A stretch of 64,000 bases of DNA from the NCBI RefSeq assembly GCF_000186705.1, contig NZ_AEUE01000003.1, forward strand, positions 1 through 64,000. Reading direction: 5' to 3'. The translations under genes and the position numbers were made by a program. Source of the stretch: Citromicrobium sp. JLT1363. GTDB taxonomy: Bacteria > Pseudomonadota > Alphaproteobacteria > Sphingomonadales > Sphingomonadaceae. Within the stretch, counting starts at the first letter, position 1, and every line of letters starts with the position of its first letter. Positions 11,710 through 51,697 of the stretch are shown here, one piece after another. Under the pieces are notes generated by a model. The model was given only the letters and a program-made list of their open reading frames with translations. It was not told the DNA's origin and did not search any database.

Positions 11710-12428
11710 AGCACGACCACTCCAATTTTGCCGTCCGCCAGGCCTATGGTTCGAGCGTCCAGCAGAAGGTGACACAGTTCCTGCCGCTGGTGCGCAAGCT
11801 TGCCTGGTACTACGAAGGCCACGGCAGCGCGACGATCGATGTGGACGATCTGATGCAGGCCGGGATGATGGCGCTGACCGAAGCGGCGCAGAGGCACGAC
11901 CGGCCGAGCGATGATGGCTTTGCGGCCTATGCCAAGATGCGCGTGCGCGGCGCCATGGTGGACCTGTTGCGCGGCCAATCCCACAAACCGCGCAGCGCGG
12001 CGAGCTGGTCGCGCAAGCGCGATTGTGCAGAGCAGGGCCTGCGCACCGAATTGGGCCGCGCGCCCACCGCCGCCGAAATGGCTGGCGCGATGGACATGCC
12101 GCTCGACCGGTACGAAGCGATGCGATTTGCCGCGTCGACCAGTTCCACCTCGATAGAGGAATGCTACTCGGACAGCGACAGCGCCTTCGGTGACGAGCGG
12201 CCCGATCCCGAAGCGAGCCTGCTGGCAAGCGAGGACAGTTCGGTTCTGGCCGGTGCCATCGCCGCCCTGCCGGAACGATTGCAGCTGGTCCTGAAGCTCT
12301 ATTTCATCGAGGAACTGAACCTCAACGAGATCGCCGCAGTCTTGGGCGTCAGCGTGCCGCGGGTGCACCAATTGAAGGCAGATGCCCTCAAGAAGGCGCG
12401 CGTCGCGCTGGTATCGCAGGTCGAATAG
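11706..12428 (+). CDS. fliA: Flagellar sigma factor FliA (sigma-28)
   Basis: 240 residues, the usual FliA length. It contains region 2 (VDDLMQAGMMALTEAAQRHD and AAYAKMRVRGAMVDLLRGQS), region 3 (GLRTELGRAPTAAEMAGAMD) and region 4 with its helix-turn-helix (LVLKLYFIEELNLNEIAAVL, GVSVPRVHQLKADALKKAR). It directs transcription of late flagellar and motility genes and is held in check by FlgM (7967). It is co-transcribed with flhA. Confidence 0.95.
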   Translation: MKHDHSNFAVRQAYGSSVQQKVTQFLPLVRKLAWYYEGHGSATIDVDDLMQAGMMALTEAAQRHDRPSDDGFAAYAKMRVRGAMVDLLRGQSHKPRSAASWSRKRDCAEQGLRTELGRAPTAAEMAGAMDMPLDRYEAMRFAASTSSTSIEECYSDSDSAFGDERPDPEASLLASEDSSVLAGAIAALPERLQLVLKLYFIEELNLNEIAAVLGVSVPRVHQLKADALKKARVALVSQVE

Positions 12429-12475
12429 GGATGCCTGCTGCGCGAAGCGTTTGCACCGCAGCATAACTTGCCTCT

Positions 12476-13228
12476 ATGGCCTTGCACATGGCCGACGGAG
12501 ATCTCGATCCACCGCCTGCATTGGGCACCATCGCCTGTCCGGCACTGTTTCTCGATTTCGACGGTACGCTGGTCGAGCTCGCGCCGAGCCCCTCGCAAAT
12601 CGTCGTTCCCGACTATCTGTCAGGCGCGCTGCAGCGCAAGGCTGCGCAGCTCGATGGTCGGCTGGCGCTGATTTCCGGGCGTTTCGTGGCAGATGTCCGC
12701 AGTCACCTGCCCGATTGTGCCGTCGTCGTCAGCGGGTCGCACGGGGCGGAGATCACCAGCCCGCAGGGCTCTCCCGTGGGCGAGAAGGAGGTTCCGCGGA
12801 TCGGCGATGCCGTGCTGGCGCAGGCGCGCGACTACGCATCCCGAACCGACGGCCTGCTGCTGGAGGAAAAGGCGCTGGGGCTGGGCCTGCACTACCGCAA
12901 TTGCGAAGATCGGCGCGACGAAATCCACCGTTTCGCGCAAGGCCTGGCGCAGGAACATGGGCTGCACCTGCGCGACGGCAAGATGCTCTTCGAACTCGCG
13001 ACTACCGACGCCGACAAGGGCGTCGGCGTACGCGCGATCATGGAACAATCGCCTTTCGCGGGCGCTTCCCCGATTTTCGTGGGTGACGATACGACCGACG
13101 AGGACGGCTTCGCGGCCGTGAACGATTTGGGCGGCTTCGGCGTTCTTGTCGGCGAAAGACGCAAAACCCTGGCGCGATACCGCCTCCGCGACGTGGCGGC
13201 CGTCCATCAATGGCTGGAGCTTGAATGA
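12476..13228 (+). CDS. otsB: Trehalose-6-phosphate phosphatase OtsB
   Basis: 250 residues of the HAD superfamily. Motif I is LFLDFDGTLVEL (nucleophile and acid/base Asp, residues about 27 and 29), motif II SGRF, a Lys/Asp segment ATTDADKGVGVR, and motif III/IV IFVGDDTTDEDGF. It removes phosphate from trehalose-6-phosphate, the last step of the OtsAB pathway. Its stop overlaps the GH15 start by 4 nt, and otsA follows, so the three form one operon. The first 20 residues before the HAD core are variable, so a start a few codons later is possible. Confidence 0.93.
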   Translation: MALHMADGDLDPPPALGTIACPALFLDFDGTLVELAPSPSQIVVPDYLSGALQRKAAQLDGRLALISGRFVADVRSHLPDCAVVVSGSHGAEITSPQGSPVGEKEVPRIGDAVLAQARDYASRTDGLLLEEKALGLGLHYRNCEDRRDEIHRFAQGLAQEHGLHLRDGKMLFELATTDADKGVGVRAIMEQSPFAGASPIFVGDDTTDEDGFAAVNDLGGFGVLVGERRKTLARYRLRDVAAVHQWLELE

Positions 13229-35936: not shown

Positions 35937-36012
35937 AGGGGTGTAGCTCAGTTGGTAGAGCATCGGTCTCCAAAACCGAGGGTCATGGGTTCGAGTCCCT
36001 TCGCCCCTGCCA
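35937..36012 (+). tRNA. tRNA-Trp (anticodon CCA), CCA end encoded
   Basis: 76 nt forming a full cloverleaf. The acceptor stem AGGGGTG pairs with CGCCCCT (one T-G wobble), the D arm is GTAGCTCAGTTGGTAGAGC, the anticodon loop reads CTCCAAA with anticodon CCA, and the T arm is GGGTTCGAGTCCC. The 3' CCA is in the DNA at 36010-36012. In many proteobacteria this tRNA gene lies just before secE; here secE is 15.9 kb away. Confidence 0.97.
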
Positions 36013-36291: not shown

Positions 36292-36945
36292 CTAGCCGTT
36301 CGGCGCCGGCTCGTGATCCGGCGCATCCTCGCCATGAATCGTCATCAGTGACTTGGCGAAGTCCTGCTCGCGGCTTGCGCAGATGCCCAGCACATGCGCT
36401 TCGTCGCATCCCTCGGCCACCACGTATGCATGGCCCATATCGGAATCGATGTAGATTCCCTCGCCCTTTTCCAGCGTGACCGAATCGTAGAATTCGGTGT
36501 GCACGACGATGCTGCCTTCGATGACGTGGATATATTCCTCGCCCGAATGGCGCACGAGCTTGCCGAATTCCTCGACCGTGCGCGCCCGGATCGTCGTCAC
36601 GATCGGGATCATGCGTTTGTTCCGCAATTCGGGGCACATGTAATAATAGTCGTAGTTGTCGGTCGTTACGCGAACCGCGCGGTCGAGCCGTCCGATGCTG
36701 CGACGTGCCGTGATCGAGCGCTCGTCACGCTCCTCTGGTTCGGCAAACAGTTCCGACAGGCGAATCCCCAACCGCTGGCTGAGCTGCAGCAGCTTGTCGT
36801 AGGTCAGCGTGAGCCGGTCGTGCTCCACCTTCGACAATGTCGAAACCGGGATGCCGCTCTCCGCACTCATCTGCTTGAGAGTCCAGCCGTTGCGCTTTCG
36901 AAGACTGCGCATGAGGCTGCCGAGGGTCTGATGCTCATCCGTCAC
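36292..36945 (-). CDS. XRE-family transcriptional regulator with C-terminal cupin
   Basis: 217 residues. The N-terminal helix-turn-helix (about 8-64) reads LGSLMRSLRKRNGWTLKQMS, AESGIPVSTLSKVEHDRLTL and YDKLLQLSQRLGIRLSELFA. The cupin (about 135-205) reads HSGEEYIHVIEGSIVVHTEF, LEKGEGIYIDSDMGHAYVVA. This class senses a small ligand in the cupin pocket and usually represses or activates adjacent catabolic and transport genes. It is divergent from the serine hydrolase-DgcA-POT operon. The matching palindromes at 36987 and 41446 are its likely operators. Confidence 0.92.
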   Translation of the reverse strand: MTDEHQTLGSLMRSLRKRNGWTLKQMSAESGIPVSTLSKVEHDRLTLTYDKLLQLSQRLGIRLSELFAEPEERDERSITARRSIGRLDRAVRVTTDNYDYYYMCPELRNKRMIPIVTTIRARTVEEFGKLVRHSGEEYIHVIEGSIVVHTEFYDSVTLEKGEGIYIDSDMGHAYVVAEGCDEAHVLGICASREQDFAKSLMTIHGEDAPDHEPAPNG

Positions 36946-36969
36946 AAGCGTCCGCTCCGCAAACCCCGA

Positions 36970-36997
36970 TTTGACAATTTTCTAATTAGGATCATTA
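36970..36997 (+). promoter_or_regulatory. Promoter of the serine hydrolase-dgcA-POT operon
   Basis: -35 TTGACA at 36970-36975 is a perfect match; 16 nt later comes CATTAT (36992-36997), four of six matches to TATAAT. The -10 is covered by the palindrome at 36987-37002. The start codon at 37082 is about 80 nt downstream and has GGGGGGAAACC before it. Confidence 0.7.
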
Positions 36998-37002
36998 TGT
37001 CC
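36987..37002. promoter_or_regulatory. Operator-like palindrome upstream of the serine hydrolase operon
   Basis: AGGATCATTATGTCCT has arms AGGA/TCCT around an 8-nt centre. Read on the minus strand, the 27 nt around it (AGGACATAATGATCCTAATT and on to AGAAAAT) match the region at 41446-41472 at all but four positions. It overlaps the -10 of the plus-strand promoter and lies 42 nt upstream of the regulator start, so it could control both. Confidence 0.75.
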
Positions 37003-37081
37003 TGATCACGCCATTTGGTCTTCGCCCAAGCTAGCGGCGAAGCCGGATCGAAGCAACAAGCCGCACGGGCGGGGGGAAACC

Positions 37082-39097
37082 ATGCGTTTGAAGAAAGAGA
37101 TGCTCGCAGCGATCGCAGCGATGGGTGCGTTCCTACTCTGGATCGGGGGGAGCAGCTTCGCGCAGACGCCCGAAGCCGATCTGCCGACCACATCCGAGGC
37201 CGAAGCTGCCGCCACCGACAGCACAGGCAGCGGGGCGGACGGCGCACAACAACTCACGAAAACCGATCTCGATACCTGGCTCGACGGCTTCATGCCCTAT
37301 GCGCTGGGCGACGGCGATATCGCGGGCGCGGTGGTCGTGGTGGTCAAGGATGGGGAGATCCTGACCCAGCGGGGCTTCGGGCTCGCCGATGTGGAGAGCC
37401 GGACCCCGGTCGATCCCGAGCGCACGCTGTTCCGCCCCGGATCGGTTTCGAAACTGGTGACCTGGACTGCGGTGATGCAGCAGGTCGAACAGGGGCGCAT
37501 CGATCTCGACGCGGACGTGAACCAGTACCTCGATTTAACGATTCCCGAGCGCAACGGCGAACCGGTCACGATGCGCCAGCTGATGACCCATACTGCGGGC
37601 TTCGAAGAGCAGATCAAGGACCTCATCGGTCACGATCGCGATGCGATTCCGCCGTATGACGAACTGCTGAAGCAGTGGGTGCCGGAACGCATCTTCGACG
37701 CGGGCGAAACGCCGGCCTATTCGAACTACGGCACCTCGCTCGCCGGATATATCGTCGAGCGCGTCTCGGGCGAGCCATTCGACGATTATGTCGAACGGCA
37801 CATCTTCGATCCGCTGAGCATGGAGGATTCGACCTTCCGCCAGCCCGTGCCGGAAAACATGCGTGGCAATCTCGCCACGGGCTACGGCAAGGCGTCGGGC
37901 GAGCCGATCCCGTTCGAGATCGTCGGCCCGGCTCCGGCCGGATCGCTGACCTCTACCGGGACCGACATGGCGCGGTTCATGATGGCGCACCTCAATGGCG
38001 GCGAACTCGACGGCAACCGCATCCTGCAAGCCGATACCGCGCGCGAGATGCATACCAGCGCGACCGACATGATCCCCGGGCTGGACCGGATGCTGCTCGG
38101 CTTCTTCGAAACCGACATCAACGGCCAGGACGTGATCGCACACCTCGGCGACACCGAGGGCTTTCATACCTCGCTCCACCTGTTCCTCGACGAAGGTGTG
38201 GGCCTCTATGCGTCGTTCAACAGCGGCGGCGAGGCGGGCGCGGTCAATGGCGTGCGGATCAACCTGTTCACCGAGTTCGCCGATCGTTACTTCCCCGGCC
38301 AGCCGGAAACGCGCCGCGTCGATCCTGAAACCGCCAAGGAGCATGCGCAGATGCTGGCGGGCAACTGGATGCCATCGCGCCGCGCGGATTCCACCTTCCT
38401 CAATCTGACCCAGCTGCTCGGCCAGACGACCGTGGGCGTGGACGCGGACGGCGACCTCGTGCTGCCGCCGGGCATGGGCCTCACCGGGCGCCCGGCCAAT
38501 TGGGTCGAGGTTGAGCCGTTCCTGTGGGAGGACCTCAACAGCCACCAGAAGCTGGGTGCCGAGGTTGTCGATGGGGAGGTGACGCGCTTCAGCCTGTCGA
38601 TCATGTCTGCTTTCACGGTGTTCGAGCGGGCGCCGTGGTACAAGGATTCCTCGCTGCTGATGCCGCTGCTTTACGCGAGCCTTCTCATCCTGCTGCTCAC
38701 GGCGCTGCTCTGGCCGACGCGCGCCCTGGTAAGGCGGCACTATTCTGGCACGCTGGGATACGAGGGGCGCGAGCTGCTCGGCTATCGCCTGTCGCGGATT
38801 GCCGCGCTGGCCATCCTCCTGGTGCTTGTCGGATGGGCCGTCACGATCACCCTGATGTTCGGCGACCTGACCAATCTCGGCGGGGCGTTCGATGCGATCG
38901 TCATCGCCTTGCAGATCGCCACCATCGTCGTGTTCTTCGGCGGGCTGGGCATCTTCTGCTGGTATCTGTGGCAGGTCTGGACGGGCAAGCGGGCATGGAC
39001 CGCCAAGGTCTGGAGCGTCCTGCTGGTGCTCGCTGGCGTGGTGATAGTGTTGGTGGGTCTCGCCTTCCACCTGATCGGGTTCGGGACCAGCTACTGA
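37082..39097 (+). CDS. S12-family serine hydrolase (beta-lactamase/D-aminopeptidase-like) with C-terminal membrane domain
   Basis: 671 residues. A signal peptide or anchor (LAAIAAMGAFLLWIGGSSFA) comes first. The catalytic domain (about 60-400) has all three penicillin-binding motifs: S121-V-S-K124 in RPGSVSKLVTW, Y213-S-N215 in PAYSNYGTSLAGY, and HLGDTEGF as the KTG-equivalent. The C-terminal 130 residues contain four membrane segments (LLYASLLILLLTALLWPTRA, AALAILLVLVGWAVTITLMF, VIALQIATIVVFFGGLGIFC, LLVLAGVVIVLVGLAFHLIG). It acts in the periplasm on peptides, probably with D-residues. First gene of the operon; dgcA overlaps by 1 nt. Confidence 0.87.
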   Translation: MRLKKEMLAAIAAMGAFLLWIGGSSFAQTPEADLPTTSEAEAAATDSTGSGADGAQQLTKTDLDTWLDGFMPYALGDGDIAGAVVVVVKDGEILTQRGFGLADVESRTPVDPERTLFRPGSVSKLVTWTAVMQQVEQGRIDLDADVNQYLDLTIPERNGEPVTMRQLMTHTAGFEEQIKDLIGHDRDAIPPYDELLKQWVPERIFDAGETPAYSNYGTSLAGYIVERVSGEPFDDYVERHIFDPLSMEDSTFRQPVPENMRGNLATGYGKASGEPIPFEIVGPAPAGSLTSTGTDMARFMMAHLNGGELDGNRILQADTAREMHTSATDMIPGLDRMLLGFFETDINGQDVIAHLGDTEGFHTSLHLFLDEGVGLYASFNSGGEAGAVNGVRINLFTEFADRYFPGQPETRRVDPETAKEHAQMLAGNWMPSRRADSTFLNLTQLLGQTTVGVDADGDLVLPPGMGLTGRPANWVEVEPFLWEDLNSHQKLGAEVVDGEVTRFSLSIMSAFTVFERAPWYKDSSLLMPLLYASLLILLLTALLWPTRALVRRHYSGTLGYEGRELLGYRLSRIAALAILLVLVGWAVTITLMFGDLTNLGGAFDAIVIALQIATIVVFFGGLGIFCWYLWQVWTGKRAWTAKVWSVLLVLAGVVIVLVGLAFHLIGFGTSY

Positions 39098-40095
39098 TGC
39101 CGGCCCTGAAGCTGGAGGCGCGGCGCGAGACGCTGCGCCTCGCCGCACCGTTTCGCATTTCGGGCCATGTCTTCGAAAACTGCGATGTGATCGTGGCGAC
39201 ACTCTCCGACGGCGTTCACGAGGGGCGCGGGGAGGGCGGCGGCGTCTATTATCTGGGCGACGATGCGGATCACATGCTGGCCGAGATCGAGGCCGCGCGC
39301 GGCGTCATCGAAGCCGGGATCGATCGCGAGGCCCTGCTGGAAGCGATGCCTGCCGGGGGTGGCCGCAACGCCATCGACTGCGCCTTGTGGGAACTGGAGG
39401 CGCGCCGGAAGGCCGTGCCGACATGGCAGCTGGCAGGCCTCGCCCAGGCGCTACCGGTCGTCACGACCTTCACGCTCGGGGCGGACACGCCGGAGGCGAT
39501 GGCGGCCGGGGCCGTCCGTTACTGCGATGCGAAGGCCATCAAGATCAAGCTGACGGGCGATCTCGATCTCGACATTGCGCGCGTGCGCGCGATCCGGGAG
39601 GCGCGCGGCGACGTCTGGCTGATGGTCGACGCGAACCAGGGTTTTGCGGTCGGGGAGCTGGACCCGCTCGTCTCGGCACTCGTCGACTGCAGGGTATCGC
39701 TGCTCGAACAGCCGCTGGCGCGTGGTAGCGAAGGCGACCTGGAGGGGTTCGAGTCCCCGATTCCGCTCGCTGCCGACGAAAGCGCGCTGACCAGTGCCGA
39801 CGTCGAAGCGCTGGCAGGCAGGTTCTCCGTCTTCAACATCAAGCTCGACAAGTGCGGCGGGCTGACCGAAGCGTTGAGGATCGCGCATCTGTGCCGAGAG
39901 CACGGGCTGCAGGTAATGGTCGGCAACATGGTCGGCTCAAGCCTCGCCATGGCGCCCGCCTATATCTTGGCCCAGCTGTGCGATTACGTCGATCTGGACG
40001 GACCCACCTTCCTCGCGAAGGACCGCGAACCGTCGCTGCGTTATGAAGACGGCATGGTCAGCTGCGGCCAGGACGTGTGGGGCTACGTCGCGTGA
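39097..40095 (+). CDS. dgcA: DgcA-like N-acetyl-D-glutamate racemase / L-Ala-D/L-Glu epimerase (enolase superfamily)
   Basis: 332 residues. Catalytic set of the muconate-lactonising subgroup: K149-I-K151 in KAIKIKLTGD, metal ligands D178 (VDANQG), E204 (LEQPL), D227 (AADES) and acid/base K249 in NIKLDKCGG. This is the dipeptide epimerase architecture; enzymes of the type epimerise L-Ala-D-Glu from peptidoglycan, and DgcA racemises N-acetyl-D-Glu. The DgcN-like gene 3.8 kb downstream favours DgcA, while the peptide transporter favours the epimerase. I chose ATG 39097, overlapping the upstream stop by 1 nt. The POT transporter starts within its stop (GTGA). Confidence 0.85.
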   Translation: MPALKLEARRETLRLAAPFRISGHVFENCDVIVATLSDGVHEGRGEGGGVYYLGDDADHMLAEIEAARGVIEAGIDREALLEAMPAGGGRNAIDCALWELEARRKAVPTWQLAGLAQALPVVTTFTLGADTPEAMAAGAVRYCDAKAIKIKLTGDLDLDIARVRAIREARGDVWLMVDANQGFAVGELDPLVSALVDCRVSLLEQPLARGSEGDLEGFESPIPLAADESALTSADVEALAGRFSVFNIKLDKCGGLTEALRIAHLCREHGLQVMVGNMVGSSLAMAPAYILAQLCDYVDLDGPTFLAKDREPSLRYEDGMVSCGQDVWGYVA

Positions 40096-41432
40096 CGACA
40101 ACCCTGGTTCCGGGTGGCGAGAAGACCTGGTTCGGCCAGCCGCGCGGCCTGACCGTCCTGTTCCTCACCAACATGTGGGAGCAGTTCTCCTATTACGGCA
40201 TGCGCGCGCTGCTCGTCTATTACATGACGCTGGAGCTGCTGATCGAGCAGGGCATGTCGTCCTACATCTACGGCACCTACACCGCGCTCGCCTATTTCAC
40301 GCCGATCTTCGGCGGGATCATCGCAGACCGCTGGCTGGGCAAGCGGCGCGCGGTCATCCTTGGCGGCACGATCATGGCGCTGGGCCACTTCCTGATGGCC
40401 TTCGAGCCGATGCTCTACATTGCGCTGGGCACGATTGCGCTGGGGAACGGATTCTTCCTTCCCAGCCTGCCGAGCCAGATCAACGATCTCTATGCCGCGG
40501 ACGACCCGCGCAGGCCGTGGGCCTATAATATCTATTATGTCGGCGTGAATATCGGCGGGTTTCTCGCGCCCCTGATCTGCGGAACGCTGGGGGAATTCTA
40601 CGGCTGGCACTACGGTTTCGGTGCCGCCGGTATCGGGATGGTCATCGGCCTGACGATCTACCTGCTCGGCGGGAAATACCTGCCGCCCGAGACCCGCGAG
40701 CCAGCCCCTGTCGAAGCGGACGAGGGCGGAACCTGGCAGGGATTCGACCGGGCAACCCTGATGCTGCTGGGGGCGCTGCTGCTCGCTGTCACGCTGTTTC
40801 GCAGCGCCTACGAACAGGTGGGCAACACGGTTGCGCTCTGGGCGAACGAGGGTGTGGACCGCACCGCGTTCGCCTTCGAAATCCCGATGACCTGGTTCCA
40901 GTCGCTCAATCCGATGATCGTGATCCTGCTCACTCCCTTCCTGCTCGCGCGCTGGCGACGGCAGGCGGAGGCGGGAACGGAACATTCGCCGCTCCAGAAG
41001 ATGGCGATCGGCGCGCTGGTCGTCGCGTGCGCCTACGTGCTGCTCGCGTTCGCTGCCGCGATCCAGCAGGACGGGCAGGCCAGCTGGATATGGCTGGTCG
41101 CGTTCTTCGTGATCCTGACCACGGGCGAGCTTTACATCCTCCCCAACGGTCTCGGCATTTTCGCGCGGCTCGCCCCGCAGCGCCTCGGAGCGAGCACCGT
41201 AGCCAGCTGGTTCTTCGCGATCTTCACCGGCAGCCTCGCCGGTGGTTTGGTCGGGAGCTTCTGGAGCGACCTGACCCCTGCGATCTATTTCGGCCTCCTG
41301 GCCGGCATCGCGATTGCTGCAGCGATCGTCCTGCGGTCGCTGGACGCGCCTGCGAGGCGGGTTTTTGCCGCCAGGTTCGGATCGGATGAGAGGATTTCGG
41401 ACACGAAGGGCCAGCCGGGCGCCGATATTTGA
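40092..41432 (+). CDS. POT-family peptide transporter with altered proton-coupling motif
   Basis: 446 residues with about 12 membrane segments. POT hallmarks: MWEQFSYYGMRALLVYYMTL near the N-terminus, LAYFTPIFGGIIADRWLGKR, AVILGGTIMALGHFLMAFEP and YNIYYVGVNIGGFLAPLICG (PTR2 signature), and a large second half. It imports di- and tripeptides. The first-helix motif ExxER, needed for proton coupling in typical POTs, reads NMWEQ here, so the first Glu and the Arg are lost. I chose the GTG at 40092, which overlaps the dgcA stop. It completes the hydrolase-dgcA-POT operon, only about 100 nt before the next start. Confidence 0.9.
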   Translation: MTTTLVPGGEKTWFGQPRGLTVLFLTNMWEQFSYYGMRALLVYYMTLELLIEQGMSSYIYGTYTALAYFTPIFGGIIADRWLGKRRAVILGGTIMALGHFLMAFEPMLYIALGTIALGNGFFLPSLPSQINDLYAADDPRRPWAYNIYYVGVNIGGFLAPLICGTLGEFYGWHYGFGAAGIGMVIGLTIYLLGGKYLPPETREPAPVEADEGGTWQGFDRATLMLLGALLLAVTLFRSAYEQVGNTVALWANEGVDRTAFAFEIPMTWFQSLNPMIVILLTPFLLARWRRQAEAGTEHSPLQKMAIGALVVACAYVLLAFAAAIQQDGQASWIWLVAFFVILTTGELYILPNGLGIFARLAPQRLGASTVASWFFAIFTGSLAGGLVGSFWSDLTPAIYFGLLAGIAIAAAIVLRSLDAPARRVFAARFGSDERISDTKGQPGADI

Positions 41433-41456
41433 CATTTCTCTTTCAAGGACATTATT
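41429..41456 (+). promoter_or_regulatory. Promoter of the TonB receptor-dgcN operon
   Basis: TTGACA at 41429-41434 is a perfect -35. The -10 candidate ATTATT (41451-41456) lies 16 nt later, inside the operator palindrome. Same architecture as the promoter at 36970, which suggests shared repression. The start codon is at 41535, with AGGAATTTAGGGGT before it. Confidence 0.65.
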
Positions 41457-41461
41457 GTCCT
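41446..41461. promoter_or_regulatory. Operator-like perfect palindrome before the TonB receptor
   Basis: AGGACATTATTGTCCT has perfect 6-bp arms (AGGACA/TGTCCT). Together with the following TGATTAGAAAAT it repeats, in inverted orientation, the sequence at 36976-37002. It covers the -10 region. Best read as the binding site of the XRE-cupin regulator. Confidence 0.8.
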
Positions 41462-41534
41462 GATTAGAAAATAACATCCTGTCGAGTCGGAGTTGTTTCG
41501 ACTCGGGTGCCAACGTCAGAAGGAATTTAGGGGT

Positions 41535-43862
41535 ATGACCAAGGCCGGACTTTGCAATCGCGCGGTTCTTGCAGCGGGCGTCGCCACCCTTGCCGTATCG
41601 TCGCCGACGATCGCAGCCGCACAATCTGCCGATGAGGGGGGCGAGGTCGAAGAGACGCGTCTCGAAGAACCCCGTTCGGTGATTGTCGTCACCGCGCAGA
41701 AGCGTACCCAGGCGCTCGACGAGGTGCCGCAGTCGATCAGCGTCGTCGGTGGGGATACGCTCGAGCGGCAGCAGGCGGACAGCTTCACCGACTATGTCGA
41801 ACTCGTTCCCAGCCTCAGCCTGACCCAGAGCAACCCGGGCGAAACCCGCGTGATCCTGCGCGGGGTGAACACCGGATCGGTCGGATCCACCGTGGCCATC
41901 TACGTCGACGAGACGCCCTTCGGTTCCAGCACCAGCCTCGGCAACGCAGCGGTGCTGGCGGGGGATTTCGATACCTTCGACCTGGAACGGGTGGAGGTGC
42001 TTCGCGGCCCGCAGGGGACGTTGTATGGATCGAATGCGCTGGGCGGGGTGATCCGTTTCGTCACTACGCCGCCGCAACTCGGCGAGTTCGAAGGACGTGC
42101 GCAAGCCGGGATCGAGACCGTCGACGGGGGCGGCGTGGGCTATCTGGCCAATGGCGTGGTCAACGTGCCGTTGGGCGACGCCCTGGCCGTCCGTGCCAGC
42201 GGGTTCTACCGCAAGAAGGCGGGCTTCGTCGACGCGATCGGCCGCGCACCCGAAGAAGAGATCGACGAAGCCGAAATCTACGGCGGACGGATCTCCGCGC
42301 TGTTCGAACCGACACCCGAATTTTCGGCCCGTCTCACCGCGCTCGCGCAGAACATTCGCGCTGGCTCGCCCAGTTCGTATGACGCCGACCCGGTGACCGG
42401 CGATCCGGTCACGGTGGACCCCAACACCAATACGCCCGTCAGCGGGCTGGTGCGGACGGAGTTCTATCCCGAGAACAACGATGTCGATTATCGTCTCTAC
42501 AACGGCACGCTCGAATACGATTTCGGCCCCGTATCGCTGACCTCGGTCACCAGTTACGGCGAGCTGGACCAGCGCCAGCGGACCGACAACACGATCGGCT
42601 TCGGGCCCACCGTGACTTTCGTCTATCAATCCTTCGGCGGACGGACCGACGACGTCGGCGCGTTTCTCGACGCTCCGCTCAAGCAGGAAAAGTTCACACA
42701 GGAAGTGCGGCTGGCGTCGGCCGACGGGCCCTTCGAATGGCAGATCGGCGGGTATTACACCGACGAGAAGGTCGAAATCGTGCAGAGCCTGATCCCGTTC
42801 GTGCAGGATACCGGCGTGCTGTTCGATCCGACCGTGCTCGGCTTTTCCGACCTGCTGATCCTCAACCTCGACTCCGAGTACGAGGAGATCGCGGGATTCG
42901 CCAATGTCAGCCTCGAGCTGACGCCGTGGTGGGAGATTGGCGGCGGTATCCGCTACAGCCAGAACGACCAGAGCGTGGTTCAGACCGAACGCGGCGCCTT
43001 CCAGCCATTGCAGGGCCTTCCCTCTCCCAACATCACGCAGGGCGAATCGAGCGAGGACGTGGTCACCTGGTCGGCAGACACACGCATCGAACTGAGCGGG
43101 CTCAGCTCGATCTATGCGCGGGTGGCCAAGGGTTACCGCCCCGGCGGCCCCAATGTCGTGCCCCCGGGCGCAGCGGCGGACTTCCCGCGTCAGTACGACG
43201 CCGATACGCTGATCAGCTACGAGCTTGGCTTCCGCGGCGAAACGATCAACCGCAGTTTCGCGATCGATGCCGCAGTCTATTATCTCGATTGGAACGACAT
43301 CCTCATCTTCGGGGCGTTCGACAGCGCGATCGGCCCGGTGGGCGCGAATGACAACGGCGGCGAAGCGCGTGTCTATGGCGCGGAACTGACCGCGACCATA
43401 CGCCCGGTCGATGGTTTCAGCCTGGTGCTGAACGGCGCCTACAACGACGCCGAACTGGTCGACGACACGCCCCCGGTGACCGGCGGCCTCGCGGGTGACC
43501 AGCTGCCCTACACGCCCGAACTGACCGCCACGATGAGTGTGGATTACGAATGGAGCCTGGGCGGAAGCACGCTGGCGTTCGTAGGCGGCGATGTTCGCCT
43601 GACGAGCGACCAGGCGGGTGGTTTCGATCAGACCTACCGGACCCTGTTCGGACGCAGGCTGGAAATCGACGGCTACCAGAAGGTCGATCTGCGTGCTGGT
43701 GTGGCCTTCGACAAGTTCAGCGTCACTGCCTTCGCCAACAACGTGACCAATAGCCGCGGGTTGACCAGCTTCGGCGGCCTCGGCGATCGACCGGGTACGC
43801 TGCTGGAAGCTTCGCCGATCCGCCCGCGGACCTTCGGTGTGACCGCCGCAGCAAGCTTCTGA
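41535..43862 (+). CDS. TonB-dependent outer-membrane receptor of the D-amino-acid peptide cluster
   Basis: 775 residues. Signal peptide (LAAGVATLAVSSPTIAAAQS) and TonB box-like SVIVVTAQKR near residue 50. The plug has EVPQSISVVGGDTLERQQAD, VRGPQGTLYGSNALGGVIRF preceded by ERVEVL, and the barrel ends RPRTFGVTAAASF with a terminal Phe. It likely imports a peptide or peptidoglycan fragment. The promoter carries the shared operator. The dgcN-like gene overlaps its stop by 1 nt and the next three genes are coupled, so the receptor heads a five-gene operon. Confidence 0.93.
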   Translation: MTKAGLCNRAVLAAGVATLAVSSPTIAAAQSADEGGEVEETRLEEPRSVIVVTAQKRTQALDEVPQSISVVGGDTLERQQADSFTDYVELVPSLSLTQSNPGETRVILRGVNTGSVGSTVAIYVDETPFGSSTSLGNAAVLAGDFDTFDLERVEVLRGPQGTLYGSNALGGVIRFVTTPPQLGEFEGRAQAGIETVDGGGVGYLANGVVNVPLGDALAVRASGFYRKKAGFVDAIGRAPEEEIDEAEIYGGRISALFEPTPEFSARLTALAQNIRAGSPSSYDADPVTGDPVTVDPNTNTPVSGLVRTEFYPENNDVDYRLYNGTLEYDFGPVSLTSVTSYGELDQRQRTDNTIGFGPTVTFVYQSFGGRTDDVGAFLDAPLKQEKFTQEVRLASADGPFEWQIGGYYTDEKVEIVQSLIPFVQDTGVLFDPTVLGFSDLLILNLDSEYEEIAGFANVSLELTPWWEIGGGIRYSQNDQSVVQTERGAFQPLQGLPSPNITQGESSEDVVTWSADTRIELSGLSSIYARVAKGYRPGGPNVVPPGAAADFPRQYDADTLISYELGFRGETINRSFAIDAAVYYLDWNDILIFGAFDSAIGPVGANDNGGEARVYGAELTATIRPVDGFSLVLNGAYNDAELVDDTPPVTGGLAGDQLPYTPELTATMSVDYEWSLGGSTLAFVGGDVRLTSDQAGGFDQTYRTLFGRRLEIDGYQKVDLRAGVAFDKFSVTAFANNVTNSRGLTSFGGLGDRPGTLLEASPIRPRTFGVTAAASF

Positions 43863-44983
43863 TGGCAGATGGCAAGGGGGGCGCATTGGCGCTGGCAACA
43901 AGGGCATTGCCCCACGACGATGAGGGCACGCTCGCCTCGCCTCGACCCGAAGACGAGGCGGGCACCACGGCTGGCGGATTGCGCACGCCATACCTGCTCT
44001 TCATCGGGGACTGCACGGAACCCGGCTATGCCAAGACCGCCTTTGGCCTGCGCGATTGGGCGGGCGAAAAATGTCTCGGCGAATATGCTCTCGCCGGCGC
44101 TACCGTCTCCACCGGCCTCACCCGCCTCACGCCCGCGCAAGCACGCGAGCGGGGCGCCAGGTCGATGGTGATCGGCATCGCCAATTCCGGCGGCCGGATC
44201 GCGCCGGAATGGATCCCCGCGCTGGAAGAGGCGCTGGCTGCGGGGCTCGACCTGATCAGCGGAATGCATGCGAAGCTTTCCGACTTGCCGGGCTTGCGTG
44301 CCGCTGCGGAGAAATACGGGCAGCGCCTGGTCGATGTGCGTACCCCACCGCCGGACCTGCCTGTCGCCACGGGGCGGAAGCGCGGTGGCAAGCGCATCCT
44401 CACGGTCGGCACGGATTGCGCGCTGGGCAAGAAATACACCGCACTTGCGATCGCGAAGGCCCTTGAGTCGCGCGGCGTGAGAAGCAATTTTCGCGCCACC
44501 GGGCAGACCGGCATCCTGATCGCGGGTGCGGGCATTGCGCTCGATTCGGTCGTCGCGGATTTTGCCGCAGGCGCGGCAGAGCTGCTCTCGCCGGACAATG
44601 CGGCCGATCACTGGGATGTGATCGAAGGGCAGGGGTCGCTGTACCACCCAGCCTATGCGGGCGTGTCGATGGCGCTGTTGCACGGCAGCCAGCCCGACGC
44701 CTTCGTCATCTGTCACGATCCCTTGCGCACGCATGTGCTGGGGCACCCGGATTTCCCGCTGCCCGATATCGAGGAACTCGCCGAACTCACGATCCGGCTG
44801 GGGCGCAGGACCAATCCTGCCATCCGTTGCGCGGGCGTATCGCTCAACACCTCGGCGCTGGGTTCCGAGGAAGCGCTGAGTCTGCTGACTGGCGAGACAG
44901 CCCGGCTGGGCATGCCGGTTGCCGATCCAATGCGCGGCGGCGATCTGTTCGACCAACTGGTCGAAAGCTGTCTCGCCGAATGA
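43862..44983 (+). CDS. dgcN: DgcN-like D-glutamate N-acetyltransferase (DUF1611 family)
   Basis: 373 residues. After about 40 variable residues the DUF1611 pattern begins: TPYLLFIGDCTEPGYAKTAF, LAGATVSTGLTRLTPAQARE, SMVIGIANSGGRIAPEWIPA and SGMHAKLSDLPGL. A P-loop-like GTDCALGKKYT lies at 183-193, followed by NFRATGQTGILIAGAGIALD. DgcN acetylates D-Glu with acetyl-CoA; its product is racemised by DgcA. Naming rests on family recall and on co-occurrence with dgcA. Overlaps both neighbours (1 nt upstream, 4 nt downstream). Confidence 0.78.
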   Translation: MADGKGGALALATRALPHDDEGTLASPRPEDEAGTTAGGLRTPYLLFIGDCTEPGYAKTAFGLRDWAGEKCLGEYALAGATVSTGLTRLTPAQARERGARSMVIGIANSGGRIAPEWIPALEEALAAGLDLISGMHAKLSDLPGLRAAAEKYGQRLVDVRTPPPDLPVATGRKRGGKRILTVGTDCALGKKYTALAIAKALESRGVRSNFRATGQTGILIAGAGIALDSVVADFAAGAAELLSPDNAADHWDVIEGQGSLYHPAYAGVSMALLHGSQPDAFVICHDPLRTHVLGHPDFPLPDIEELAELTIRLGRRTNPAIRCAGVSLNTSALGSEEALSLLTGETARLGMPVADPMRGGDLFDQLVESCLAE

Positions 44984-46098
44984 GCGGAGCGGTCGCCTCG
45001 GACGGGTTCTTCCGGCGGCTGGTGCTGCCGGGGTTCGCGTTCAAGGCGGTCGTGATCGGCGGGGGCTATGCCACGGGGCGCGAGATTGCGGAGTTCTTCG
45101 TCGGCAGCGGACCGATGGGCGGGCTGCTCGGCCTGCTGCTGGCGATGGCGATCTGGAGCATCGTGTGCGCCGTCACCTTCGAATTCGCGCGGCAGGTGCA
45201 GGCGACGGATTATCGAGGTTTCTTCGCTGAACTTCTCGGCCCCGGCTGGATCGCGTTCGAAATCGCCTATGTTCTGTTCATGATCCTCGTCATCGCGGTG
45301 ATCGCGGCTGCGGCGGGCGAGATCGGTAGCGCCTTGTTCGCCTGGCCGACATGGATCGGGACCGCCCTGCTGCTGGGCCTGATCATCGCGGTGGTCAGCC
45401 GCGGCACCGCGGCGGCAGAGCGCCTGTTCCGCTATTCTTCCGTGCTGATCTACGCGGTCTATGCGCTGTTTCTGATCCTGGCGCTGGCTGCGTTCGGCGA
45501 TCAGATCGGCGGCAAGCTTACCGCGTCCACTCCGGGTGCCGGATGGGTTGCAGGAGGCGTGACGTACGCCAGCTACAACGTGATCGGCGCCGCGCTGATC
45601 CTGCCATTCCTTCGTCACCAGTCGTCGCGCCGCGATGCGCTGTATTCGGGGCTGCTCGCCGGACCGCTCGCCATGCTCCCCGCACTGGGCTTCTTCCTCA
45701 GCATGATCGCCTTCACGCCCGAGATCGGCGAGGCAGCCTTGCCTTCGGACTTCCTTCTCACGCGGATCGGGGTGCCGTGGTTCGGTTTCGTCTTCCAGGC
45801 GATGATCTTCGTCGCGCTGCTCGAGACCGGCATCGGCATGGTCAACGCGCTGGAGGAGCGCGCGGTTGCCGCTGTCCGCAGCCGGGGGGGCACCCTGCCT
45901 GCAACCGCGCGCATTGCCCTCAGCGCGGCGATCGTGATCGGATCGGGTGTCCTTGCCTCGAAGCTCGGCCTGATAGACCTGATCGCCTCCGGCTACGGCG
46001 TGTTCGGCTGGATAATGCTGTTCCTTTTCGTCGTGCCGCTGCTGACGCTCGGCACCTATCGCATCATAACCCGCCCTCTGGAGATCGCATCGACATGA
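44980..46098 (+). CDS. YkvI-like multi-spanning membrane transporter
   Basis: 372 residues with about 10-11 membrane segments: FKAVVIGGGYATGREIAEFF, LLLAMAIWSIVCAVTFEFAR, YVLFMILVIAVIAAAAGEIG and YASYNVIGAALILPFLRHQS. The early GGGYATGREIAEFF is a cation/substrate turn typical of the YkvI and APC-like membrane families of unclear substrate. In a cluster for D-amino acid peptides it is likely an amino-acid or peptide exporter/importer. Overlaps dgcN and the next hydrolase by 4 nt (ATGA) each. Confidence 0.7.
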   Translation: MSGAVASDGFFRRLVLPGFAFKAVVIGGGYATGREIAEFFVGSGPMGGLLGLLLAMAIWSIVCAVTFEFARQVQATDYRGFFAELLGPGWIAFEIAYVLFMILVIAVIAAAAGEIGSALFAWPTWIGTALLLGLIIAVVSRGTAAAERLFRYSSVLIYAVYALFLILALAAFGDQIGGKLTASTPGAGWVAGGVTYASYNVIGAALILPFLRHQSSRRDALYSGLLAGPLAMLPALGFFLSMIAFTPEIGEAALPSDFLLTRIGVPWFGFVFQAMIFVALLETGIGMVNALEERAVAAVRSRGGTLPATARIALSAAIVIGSGVLASKLGLIDLIASGYGVFGWIMLFLFVVPLLTLGTYRIITRPLEIAST

Positions 46099-47690
46099 CC
46101 CACCTGCGCCCGGCCCGCCTTCTCACCGTATTGCTGGCGAGTGCCAGCCTTTTCGCGGCTCCGGCATATGCCGCGCCGCCCGAAGACCTGGAGGCGAGGG
46201 CCGAAGCACTGATCGATCGCTTCGAGGCGCCGGGCCTCTCGATCGCCATCGTTGAGGATGGCGAGGTCACCTTTGCCGACGGCTTCGGCGTGACCGACCT
46301 GCAGGATCCCGTCGCGGTCGGCTCCGACACGAATTTTGCGATCGGTTCGGTGACCAAGGCTTTCACCGCGACCGCGCTTGCGATCCTCGTCGACGAAGGG
46401 CGGATCGGCTGGGACCAGAAGGTGGTCGATATCATGCCCGAATTCCGCATGAAGGATGCCTGGGTGACGCGCGAGATGACCGTGCGCGACCTGCTCGTCC
46501 ATCGTAGCGGGCTTGGTCTTGGCGCGGGCGACCTGCTGTTCGTGCCGCGCAGCGACCTTACCCGTGCGGACGTGGTCGAGCGGCTGGGCGAAATCCCGCT
46601 CGAGACCAGTTTTCGCAGCAGCTACGCCTACGATAACATCCTCTACATGGTGGCAGGCCGGCTGATCGAGCGGGTGACAGGGCAGAGCTGGGAGCGCTTC
46701 GTGACCGACCGCATCCTGCGTCCGGCAGGAATGACGAGCGCGACGGTAGAGAACGACGCACGCGGGCCCGACGATCTGGTGGCGGATCCGCACGCGCGGA
46801 TCGACGGTCCGATCCGGGGGACAGGGACGATGGAACGGCTGGACGATTCACTCGTCGTTGCGCAGGTCGCTGCCCCGGCAGGGGGGATCGCCGCAAGCGC
46901 CAGCGACATGGCGAAATGGATCGAGCTGCAGCTCGCGCTGGGTGACCTGCCGGGAGATGCGCGGCTGTTCAGCGAAGAGCAGGGGCGCGAAATGTGGAAG
47001 CCCGTCGTGCTGATGCCGACGCCAATGTACGCGGGCGACCTCGCGCAGACCGCGCCCTTGTTCAACACCTACGCGCTTGGCTGGAACGTGCGGGATTATC
47101 GCGGCGAACGGGTTATCATGCATGGCGGCGGGGTTTACGGTTCGATCACCCGCCTCGTCCTGCTGCCCGATCGCAACGTGGGGTTCTTCCTGGCCACCAA
47201 CAGCGAGGAGGCAGGGCTGCTGACCGGGCTGCAGTTCGAACTGCTCGATCATTATCTGGGCGTGGAGGGGAACGACTGGCCCGCCGCCTTCGGCAAGTTC
47301 ATCGACGACTATTTCGGCAGTGCCGCCAGCCAGTTGGCAGGGCCGGGCAAGGAGCCCGCCGATGTCGGCCCCTCGCTCCCGCTGGCGGGTTACGCGGGCG
47401 AATATGCCGATCCATGGTTCGGTACGATCGCGGTGAGCGATGGGGATGACGGCCTGACGGTCCGGTTTCCGCACTGGGAAGGGGTTACCGCCCGCCTGGA
47501 ACACTATCAGTACGATACCTTCATCACGCGTTACGAGGATGAAAGCTTCGAGCCTGCCTACGTGACCTTCGCGCTCGATGCCCAAGGCAAGGTGGACCGG
47601 GTCACCATGAAGGCGGTGTCACCGGTAGCCGATTTCAGCTGGGACTATGACGATCTGCTGTTTCAGCCGGTCGCTTCCAACGGGCAATGA
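46095..47690 (+). CDS. Secreted S12-family serine hydrolase (beta-lactamase/D-aminopeptidase-like)
   Basis: 531 residues. Signal peptide (LLTVLLASASLFAAPAYA). The catalytic domain has S85-V-T-K88, Y179-D-N181 and H343-G-G345 (the KTG-equivalent HGG) with VYGSITRLVLLP after it. The remaining 180 residues form a second beta-rich region (GYAGEYADPWFGTIAVSDGD), as in D-aminopeptidase-like proteins. It probably removes D-residues or cleaves peptides in the periplasm. It is a second enzyme of the same class as 37082 but without the membrane part. Overlaps both neighbours by 4 nt. Confidence 0.88.
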   Translation: MTHLRPARLLTVLLASASLFAAPAYAAPPEDLEARAEALIDRFEAPGLSIAIVEDGEVTFADGFGVTDLQDPVAVGSDTNFAIGSVTKAFTATALAILVDEGRIGWDQKVVDIMPEFRMKDAWVTREMTVRDLLVHRSGLGLGAGDLLFVPRSDLTRADVVERLGEIPLETSFRSSYAYDNILYMVAGRLIERVTGQSWERFVTDRILRPAGMTSATVENDARGPDDLVADPHARIDGPIRGTGTMERLDDSLVVAQVAAPAGGIAASASDMAKWIELQLALGDLPGDARLFSEEQGREMWKPVVLMPTPMYAGDLAQTAPLFNTYALGWNVRDYRGERVIMHGGGVYGSITRLVLLPDRNVGFFLATNSEEAGLLTGLQFELLDHYLGVEGNDWPAAFGKFIDDYFGSAASQLAGPGKEPADVGPSLPLAGYAGEYADPWFGTIAVSDGDDGLTVRFPHWEGVTARLEHYQYDTFITRYEDESFEPAYVTFALDAQGKVDRVTMKAVSPVADFSWDYDDLLFQPVASNGQ

Positions 47691-48925
47691 AGGGCCAAGA
47701 CATGCGATGTGAAGGGCAGCCGAAGGCTGGCCGGGCCATGGTTGCGGTGCTTGCCGCCGCAGCGCTCGCAGGCTGCGTCACGGGTGTCGAAAGCGAAACC
47801 GGTGTGGCGAGGGCAGGGGAGGTTCATCGCGAACTCCTGGTACTCGACACCCATCTCGACACCGCGATCAATTTCGGACGCGAGGGCTGGGATTTCTCCG
47901 AAGCGCATGACGTCTCGAGCGAGATCGCGCAGGTGGATCTTGGCCGGATGGCGGCGGGCAACCTCGATGGCGGCTTCTTCGTCATCTTCACCGAGCAGGG
48001 CCCGTTGACGGCCGAGGGATATCGCAGCGCGCTCGATCACGCCCGCGAGCGCTCCGACACCATCGACCGGGAACTGGCGAAACATCCGGCCATGGTCGGC
48101 CTGGCGAGGAGCGCGGCAGAGGCCGAAGCGCTGATCGCGCAGGACAAGCTGATCGCATTCAAGTCGATCGAGAACAGCTATCCGATCGGAGAGGATCTCT
48201 CGCTTCTGCGCGAATTCTACGATGCTGGCGTGCGCATGGCGGGGCCGGTCCACGGCGGGACGAACCAGCTGGGCGACTCAGCCACCGACGATGCCAAATG
48301 GAACGGGCTGAGCCCCCTCGGCCGGCAATGGGTGCGCGAGATGAATCGGCTGGGCATGATCATCGATGCCAGCCACGCATCGGATGTCGTTCTCGACCAG
48401 ATGCTGGAGCTTTCGAAAGCGCCGATCATCCTGTCGCATTCCTCGCCTCGCTGGGCCTACGACCATCCGCGAAACATCGACGACGATCGCATTCGCCGGA
48501 TCGCGGCGAAGGGCGGCGCGGTATGCATGTCGTCGATCTTCATGAGCGAACTGGACCTGTCGGGAGAGCGCGGGGAGCTGTTCGACCAGTATGATCGCAT
48601 CGCGCAGATGACTCCTGCGCAGCAGCGCGAACTCAGCCGCAAATGGCGCGCGCTCGACGCTGCCCAGCCGATGTGGGACGTCAGCTTCGATCGCTACATG
48701 GAGGCACTGCTCCATCTGATCGACGTCGCGGGCGTCGATCACGTGTGCTTCGGTACCGATTGGGATGGCGGCGGCGGCATCGAGGGGTTGATGGATGTGA
48801 CCGATCTGCCCGACGTCACCGCCCGGCTGATCGAAGCCGGCTATTCGCAAGAGAGCATCGGCAAGATGACAGGGGGCAACGTCTTGCGGATCATGCGCGC
48901 CGTCGAGGCGGCGCGCACGCGTTGA
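47687..48925 (+). CDS. Membrane dipeptidase (M19 family) lipoprotein
   Basis: 412 residues. A lipobox LAGC sits at residue 30, so it is membrane-anchored. M19 zinc ligands and motifs: DTHLDTAINF (His56, Asp58), the bridging Glu region FKSIENSYPIG, DASHASDVVLDQML, ILSHSSPRWAYDHPRNIDDD and FGTDWDGGGG. Renal-dipeptidase relatives cleave dipeptides with a D-residue at the second position. The last gene of the TonB receptor-dgcN-hydrolase operon (ATGA overlap). ATG 47702 is an alternative start. Confidence 0.93.
   Translation: MKGQDMRCEGQPKAGRAMVAVLAAAALAGCVTGVESETGVARAGEVHRELLVLDTHLDTAINFGREGWDFSEAHDVSSEIAQVDLGRMAAGNLDGGFFVIFTEQGPLTAEGYRSALDHARERSDTIDRELAKHPAMVGLARSAAEAEALIAQDKLIAFKSIENSYPIGEDLSLLREFYDAGVRMAGPVHGGTNQLGDSATDDAKWNGLSPLGRQWVREMNRLGMIIDASHASDVVLDQMLELSKAPIILSHSSPRWAYDHPRNIDDDRIRRIAAKGGAVCMSSIFMSELDLSGERGELFDQYDRIAQMTPAQQRELSRKWRALDAAQPMWDVSFDRYMEALLHLIDVAGVDHVCFGTDWDGGGGIEGLMDVTDLPDVTARLIEAGYSQESIGKMTGGNVLRIMRAVEAARTR

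Positions 48926-50173: not shown

Positions 50174-51697
<1,524 letters not shown>

Follow-up and report, generated by a model that had tools for sequence, protein, structure and literature searches.

A conserved two-operon locus with a probable role in D-peptide utilization in Citromicrobium, with a DgcN/DgcA-like pair probably directed at neutral or hydrophobic residues

We analyzed a 64,000-nucleotide stretch of the 3.1-Mb genome of Citromicrobium sp. JLT1363 (contig NZ_AEUE01000003.1, positions 1 to 64,000; hereafter the window) and examined a nine-gene locus at positions 36292 to 48925 that encodes a TonB-dependent receptor (TBDR), two S12 serine hydrolases (S12A and S12B), an M19 dipeptidase, a POT peptide symporter, a YkvI-like transporter, an XRE-cupin regulator, and relatives of DgcA and DgcN, the two enzymes of a published route for D-glutamate use. 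It is well supported that this locus imports and digests peptides containing D-amino acids. Taken as a whole, it is probably a two-operon locus for the use of D-peptides, governed by a single local regulator of the XRE-cupin type, in which the D-to-L step would serve neutral or hydrophobic residues and not glutamate.

All nine genes named in an earlier sequence-only reading of this DNA are present, and Pfam and NCBIfam matches agree with the families it gave (Table 1). Eight of the genes are co-oriented, with the XRE-cupin gene divergent, and neighbors overlap by 1 to 4 bases at the S12A-DgcA, DgcA-POT, TBDR-DgcN, DgcN-YkvI, YkvI-S12B, and S12B-M19 junctions; the sole gap among the eight, 102 bp, lies between POT and the receptor. 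The POT gene opens with a GTG that overlaps the epimerase stop, a start set by the gene-calling script. The regulator scored 48 bits against the NCBIfam PuuR model, below its cut-off of 211 bits.

Table 1. Features of the D-peptide locus in the window
Feature	Position	Strand	Details
XRE-cupin transcriptional regulator	36292..36945	-	GTG start; HTH_3 40.9 bits, Cupin_2 29.5 bits, both above cut-off
Promoter/operator 1, before S12A	36971..37006	+	TTGACA; AGGA-N8-TCCTGAT inverted repeat overlaps -10 region
S12A, S12 serine hydrolase	37082..39097	+	Beta-lactamase PF00144 210 bits; SVSK121, YSN213, HLG354
DgcA-like enolase-superfamily racemase/epimerase	39097..40095	+	MR_MLE_C; DgcA model 367.8 of 400 bits
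POT-family di/tripeptide:proton symporter	40092..41432	+	TIGR00924 294 bits, cut-off 130
Promoter/operator 2, before TonB receptor	41429..41464	+	AGGACA-TTAT-TGTCCT palindrome
TonB-dependent outer-membrane receptor	41535..43862	+	Plug PF07715 77.6 bits
DgcN-like DUF1611 protein; N-acylation of D-amino acids predicted	43862..44983	+	PF07755, PF17396; DgcN model 445.3 of 480 bits
YkvI-like transporter with APC/LeuT fold; amino-acid import predicted	44980..46098	+	AlphaFold model
S12B, S12 serine hydrolase with DUF3471, probably exported	46095..47690	+	PF00144 211 bits, PF11954; SVTK85, YDN179, HGG343
M19 membrane dipeptidase, putative lipoprotein	47687..48925	+	PF01244 302 bits vs cut-off 26; possible start 47738

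A family-level search recovered a DgcN relative in 84 of 298 same-family genomes, among them 3 of the 7 listed for the window's genus. Genes in 140 neighborhoods and 80 named loci were called with a script and clustered by similarity, and 213 distinct DgcN loci were kept after merging copies with identical last 150 residues. We defined window-type loci (type 2; n = 98) by the presence of XRE and YkvI genes near a DgcN, so that neither gene is counted as evidence, and set against them the LysR-type loci (type 1; n = 30, of which 29 have a distinct DgcA), where LysR, dgcN, and dgcA stand together; the other 85 loci comprise 18 XRE-only, 11 YkvI-only, and 56 other loci. These class labels depend on script-made gene calls, neighbor counts per locus cover genes within 9 kb, and the LysR-type loci that serve as the comparison set are no random sample and come solely from the same-family genomes.

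The window genes recur together in this collection. S12A accompanies 96 of the 98 window-type loci, DgcA 91, S12B and the TonB receptor 77 each, M19 64, and POT 41; an N-acyl-D-amino-acid deacylase lies near 35, and at least one of M19 and the deacylase is found in 85. The LysR-type loci are built differently, with DgcA in all 30, S12A in 8, M19 in 1, and POT in none, and often with an N-acyl-D-amino-acid deacylase (24/30), PBP4 (16/30), and a DctA-type symporter (19/30, against 3/98 at window-type loci). Named window-type loci belong to Sphingomonadales, Lysobacteraceae (Luteimonas, Lysobacter, Stenotrophomonas, Xanthomonas, and others), and Steroidobacteraceae; the closest named relative is Citromicrobium sp. 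UBA3494, with a DgcN 95% identical across all 373 residues. The combination of dgcN and dgcA with S12 and TonB genes, and partly with POT, thus recurs in Sphingomonadales and beyond. The sequence-only reading had proposed a coherent locus for D-peptide uptake and breakdown, which is supported by the joint conservation of S12, M19, POT, TonB, and DgcN/DgcA-like genes across two classes of Proteobacteria and by the deacylase that adjoins some of the loci; for the peptidoglycan source that it considered possible we found no direct evidence.

The same reading had assigned the enzyme pair to the conversion of D-Glu into L-Glu, and here our results diverge from it. Both window proteins score below the equivalog cut-offs of their NCBIfam models (NF042940 for DgcA and NF041892 for DgcN; Table 1). 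In searches of 72 of the 84 DgcN-bearing genomes (12 were left out), with places paired to loci by eye, DgcA exceeded its cut-off in 55 genomes and DgcN in 43. In the genomes searched, LysR-type loci passed for DgcN in 29 of 29 cases (489 to 518 bits) and for DgcA in 28 of 29 (407 to 442 bits; the remaining one is split by a stop), and no window-type locus in the 72 genomes holds a place above either cut-off.

The catalytic machinery of the DgcA-like enzyme is nevertheless intact. Across 159 distinct DgcA sequences encoded no more than six genes away, window included, the lysines and metal ligands (K149, K151, D178, E204, D227, and K249) are invariant, and both aspartates of the DLDG motif, which we take to hold the amino end of the dipeptide in epimerases of this group, are kept in 159/159. 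The two types, split without looking at DgcA, differ at a pair of arginines. The position equivalent to Arg24 of PDB entry 1jpd, the E. coli L-Ala-D/L-Glu epimerase, is Gly in 88/88 readable window-type sequences and Arg in 25/25 readable LysR-type ones (the column is gapped in 1 XRE-YkvI and 4 LysR rows), and the PYPRYGES loop, which keeps its Arg in 29/29 LysR-type sequences, has Tyr or Phe at that place in 88/88 window-type ones; the window enzyme itself has G23 and Y52 in place of Arg. Both arginines occur in 1jpd and 4gfi, and Leu stands at the first position in the dipeptide epimerase 3jva, reportedly solved with dipeptides ending in Tyr, and in 3q45. Among the 41 DgcA sequences of other loci, which were excluded from the two-type contrast, the first position is Gly in 24, Arg in 14, Asp in 2, and Ser in 1.

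A parallel pattern is found in the DgcN-like protein, which aligns to PDB entry 7xrj with 370 bits. Its Ala67 and Leu293 correspond to Arg in 29/35 and 30/35 LysR-type copies, respectively, and to Arg in 7xrj; this contrast used a wider LysR set (35 DgcN, 30 DgcA) than the neighbor and arginine contrasts (30 loci, 29 DgcA). On a FastTree DgcN tree, one change separates the types when only two-type rows are considered; against all other rows the LysR type requires 5 changes (shuffled mean, 28.5) and the window type 28 (70.5), with some long branches flagged, and the DgcA arginine state takes 5 changes on the same tree. DgcA and DgcN thus changed largely together. On the sub-cut-off scores and the replaced arginines, in the expected acidic pocket of DgcA and at two positions of DgcN, we set D-Glu aside as the first-choice substrate, and the racemizing pair is more likely to act on neutral or hydrophobic D-amino acids.

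Neighboring genes in other genera bear on the same question. A leucine dehydrogenase adjoins 16/98 window-type and 0/30 LysR-type loci, and a small Lrp-like regulator 17/98 and 0/30. One such dehydrogenase (L047) scored 277 to 304 bits against solved leucine dehydrogenases, about 100 bits or less against glutamate dehydrogenases, and 306 bits against an entry titled Glu/Leu/Phe/Val dehydrogenase. An example of the N-acyl-D-amino-acid deacylase (L034) matched a D-aminoacylase in PDB at 246 bits, above the N-acyl-D-glutamate deacylase at 210 bits.

The organization into two coupled operons, also put forward in the sequence-only reading, is supported by copies of one promoter/operator sequence before S12A and before the receptor. 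When the divergent regions of relatives are compared, the promoter-like sequence TTGACAATTYTCYRATYAGGATCATTAT emerges along with additional conserved positions. Of 88 usable divergent regions, 74 match 26 or more of the 36 positions specified, against 0 of 1760 shuffles, a count that is not independent, as the 40-base operator consensus was built from the same regions, with shuffles that ignore kinship. The contrast between locus types is the better evidence: the operator is found somewhere in the fetched stretch of 90/98 window-type (XRE-YkvI) loci and 0/30 LysR-type loci, with 12/18 XRE-only, 2/11 YkvI-only, and 2/56 other loci. Operator 1 agrees with 35 of the 36 consensus positions, and the relatives' consensus has a single match in the genome, with 0 mismatches, which is this site. 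Operator 2 is the less similar copy (25 of 36 positions; single-strand hairpin z of -2.32), and a site with at least 26 of 36 positions precedes the receptor in 32 of 73 usable XRE-YkvI stretches. The pattern TTGACANTTYTCN5AGGAN8TCCTGAT was derived from both window sites, which match it without mismatch by construction; with as many as 3 mismatches allowed, it had no further match in the genome, and its reversed control gave 0. As for two patterns with wrong spacing, one had no match and the other had six at 2 to 3 mismatches (one of them operator 2), with two in the reversed control. Within the operator sites, the inverted repeat and a 20-bp direct repeat both exceed neighboring spacings. The gene overlaps had suggested a single eight-gene operon; we dropped this reading because a second operator copy stands ahead of the receptor. 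Judging from position and co-occurrence, the XRE-cupin protein probably binds both operator sites.

The hydrolases are predicted to act outside the cytoplasm. The SxxK, YxN, and (H/K)xG motifs of S12 serine hydrolases are present in both S12 proteins. Matches of S12A in PDB include alkaline D-peptidase and D-Ala-D-Ala carboxypeptidases, and also beta-lactamases and esterases; with an N-terminal export segment and hydrophobic C-terminal segments, it is predicted to be a membrane-anchored periplasmic enzyme. The strongly hydrophobic segments past its hydrolase domain recall the membrane-anchored ClbP-type D-peptidases. PDB matches of S12B include IS11, the ClbP peptidase, alkaline D-peptidase, and D-aminopeptidase, and the M19 protein (381 bits to PDB entry 2rag) carries DTHLD, IEN, and SHS motifs and a lipobox-like LAGC. 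Hydrophobic N-termini and the lipobox suggest that S12A, S12B, and M19 are all exported, and a crude test across window-type loci found an export-type N-terminus in 83/108 S12A, 74/83 S12B, and 59/87 M19 proteins.

The membrane protein at 44980 to 46098 has no Pfam or NCBIfam match; naming it by profile through these libraries failed, and the name YkvI (COG3949) is the earlier reader's, which we adopt as an assumption. Its AlphaFold model (pLDDT, 90.2) has an APC/LeuT-type transporter fold, with a top structural match to 9a52, an integrative model titled YCSG-FABL (Z, 30.3), and further matches to the bacterial exchanger BasC (9h76; Z, 28.8; 351 aligned; rmsd, 3.4) and, at Z of ∼28, to LAT2 and SLC7A10. 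Nramp-type metal transporters match the model as well, so an amino-acid substrate does not follow from the fold.

These observations are consistent with the following scheme, in which the sequence of steps is our inference, as are regulator binding, transport direction, acyl donor, and the class of substrate. The XRE-cupin regulator would recognize one palindrome present at each of the two promoters. Peptides containing D-residues would cross the outer membrane through the TonB receptor, and S12A, S12B, and the putative M19 lipoprotein would cleave D-containing bonds in the periplasm. The POT symporter may then import di- and tripeptides, and the YkvI-like transporter free amino acids. Inside the cytoplasm, the D-amino acid would be N-acylated by the DgcN-like enzyme, and the DgcA-like enzyme would either racemize the N-acyl product or epimerize an imported L-X-D-X dipeptide, yielding L-amino acids. 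Knowledge of the families suggests the uptake and cutting steps, and homology to DgcN and DgcA the D-to-L step.

Several alternatives deserve weight. In one, overlapping the reading we favor, the DgcA-like protein is chiefly a dipeptide epimerase: POT would import L-X-D-Y dipeptides for conversion to L-X-L-Y, ordinary peptidases would finish the work, and DgcN would serve a parallel route for free D-amino acids. The epimerase/POT overlap (median of 4 bp in 37 loci with this pair) and the retained DLDG motif, with both Asp in 159/159 and a presumed role in dipeptide binding, speak for it, but the same motif occurs in LysR-type DgcA, whose NCBIfam name is N-acetyl-D-Glu racemase, and POT lies near only 41 of the 98 window-type loci that have DgcA near 91; we regard this variant as possible, if on the unlikely side. 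It is unlikely that D-Ala, along with further small residues of cell-wall peptides, is what the locus handles in place of bulky hydrophobic D-amino acids, a proposal that likewise overlaps the favored reading: D-Ala-D-Ala carboxypeptidases are among the S12 relatives and the pocket change takes away charge without proving size, yet in other genera a leucine dehydrogenase and an Lrp-type regulator are linked to the locus.

That peptidoglycan-derived peptides are imported and DgcN and DgcA turn D-Glu into L-Glu appears distinctly doubtful. DgcA and DgcN are the best-matching NCBIfam families, overall homology to 1jpd and 7xrj is evident, and the genome encodes no other DgcN or DgcA; against this stand the scores of both enzymes under the family cut-offs, the loss of both expected Glu-binding arginines in DgcA and of two conserved arginines in DgcN, and the separate LysR-dgcN-dgcA locus of related genomes, often accompanied by DctA and PBP4. 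A role in defense against peptide antibiotics containing D-amino acids, instead of nutrition, would account for ClbP-type D-peptidases among the S12 relatives and for class A beta-lactamase-family genes inside some versions of the locus. The importers, the racemizing enzymes, and the linked amino-acid dehydrogenase fit catabolism instead, and no efflux or immunity family scored above cut-off among the nine proteins in Pfam and NCBIfam (the PADLOC defense library was not searched), making defense highly improbable.

Our preferred reading, a D-peptide locus whose pair serves neutral or hydrophobic residues, also has points weighing against it. The leucine dehydrogenase is absent beside the window locus, and a dehydrogenase homolog occurs in 7/7 genomes of the window's genus, four of them without DgcN; being generic in that genus and outside the window locus, the enzyme backs neutral substrates only via other genera. 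The N-acyl-D-amino-acid deacylase is commoner at LysR-type than at window-type loci and for that reason does not speak for neutral substrates, and no N-acyl-L-amino-acid deacylase was identified within the cluster. The holding of the Glu side chain by Arg24 of 1jpd is a role that we assume, and 7xrj has Ile at position 61 where LysR-type DgcN has Arg, so that 7xrj follows the LysR-type pattern only in part. The window genome holds one DgcN and one DgcA match and no LysR-type locus, so that D-Glu conversion could still fall to this pair, and D-Ala cannot be told from larger residues as the substrate. Finally, every locus was retrieved by its likeness to the window DgcN, which tilts the sample toward the window type and biases abundances.

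Several further observations concern the locus and its relatives. Some genomes of the family encode many full-length DgcN-like genes (G253, G242, G085, and G201; 11 in G253 and 7 in G242), and several of the extra genes in multicopy genomes have receptor or hydrolase neighbors of their own. In some versions from Stenotrophomonas and Sphingomonas (L243, L245, L239, L188, and L174), the DgcN-like and transporter genes flank a gene of the class A beta-lactamase family, and that of L188, the only copy scanned, passes the NCBI class A model (226 against 200 bits). In another locus (L038), the cluster is joined by an amidohydrolase at 11874 to 13157 that resembles the model for the Caulobacter Xaa-Pro dipeptidase (374 of 500 bits), and its similarity group adjoins 12/98 window-type loci. 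In the window, a 1302-codon open frame (40083 to 43991, minus strand) runs antisense to POT and the receptor; it is rejected by codon scoring and is probably a high-GC artifact. Just downstream of the locus, on the opposite strand, lies a sodium:alanine symporter of the AgcS family (50174 to 51697, minus strand; 446 bits). A tRNA-Trp gene (35937 to 36012, plus strand) lies near the regulator end, and insertion of the locus near it is conceivable, given DgcN in 3/7 listed genomes of the genus.

As a bolder proposal, which we hold at slightly less than even confidence, the locus may represent a new family of D-peptide loci resembling polysaccharide utilization loci, with one receptor, tailored hydrolases, and a local regulator, in which the pair switched from acidic to neutral or hydrophobic substrates; the diversified sphingomonad copies (up to 11 DgcN-like genes per genome) might each be adapted to a separate set of D-peptides, for example nonribosomal or cell-wall ones. 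D-Amino acids are a slowly turned-over fraction of dissolved organic matter, and a conserved D-peptide operon whose racemizing pair is predicted to serve nonacidic residues would add to the D-Glu route known so far. Such an operon would also counsel caution, as not every DUF1611 protein in surveys should then be labeled DgcN, and genomes with many DgcN-like copies are natural comparison sets.

The described D-Glu cluster consists of dgcN, dgcA, and a regulator. A literature search on DUF1611, YkvI/COG3949, and D-peptide topics (most subscription papers fell outside it) returned no description of the present layout, in agreement with the earlier statement that the combination with TonB, POT, and S12 genes is not known from described D-Glu loci. 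Two papers place the DgcN-DgcA route in D-Glu use (PMC10845958; PMC11747546), and in another dgcN is named as the key gene for a pathway that handles acidic D-amino acids and the corresponding amides (PMC12363236). Hydrophobic specificity has a precedent, since a Thermotoga maritima epimerase of the same superfamily accepts dipeptides with hydrophobic C-terminal residues (PMC13338154).

Compared with the DgcN-DgcA pathway, the window locus has an XRE-cupin regulator where LysR-type sphingomonad loci have LysR, scores under both family cut-offs, lacks the expected acidic-pocket arginines, and embeds the pair among a TonB receptor, POT, two S12 hydrolases, M19, and a YkvI-like transporter. Relatives with the LysR-type cluster carry LysR directly upstream of dgcN, followed by dgcA; the window locus departs from this layout, with the dgcA-like gene before the dgcN-like gene and POT and the receptor between them. 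Tang et al. (2012), working from gene context in marine bacteria, predicted TonB-receptor uptake of N-acyl-D-amino acids (PMC3400609), which like the loci studied here links TonB uptake to an N-acyl-D-amino-acid hydrolase; there, the receptor lies beside a D-aminoacylase in gamma proteobacterium NOR5-3, and the available part of that paper mentions no DgcN/DgcA operon. With the L-Ala-D/L-Glu epimerase (1jpd) and other dipeptide epimerases, the window DgcA shares the family, the Lys/Lys bases, the three metal ligands, and DLDG; unlike 1jpd, it has no Arg at the expected Glu-binding position (Gly23), as is also true of 3jva and 3q45, with Leu there. The N-succinyl/N-acylamino acid racemase route presumably follows the same logic as the one we propose, in which a D-amino acid is acylated, the acyl form racemized, and the L form released; its racemase is a weaker sequence match for the window enzyme (∼68 bits, against 191 to 210), and the DUF1611 acyltransferase would, we assume, take the place of the GNAT type of that route.

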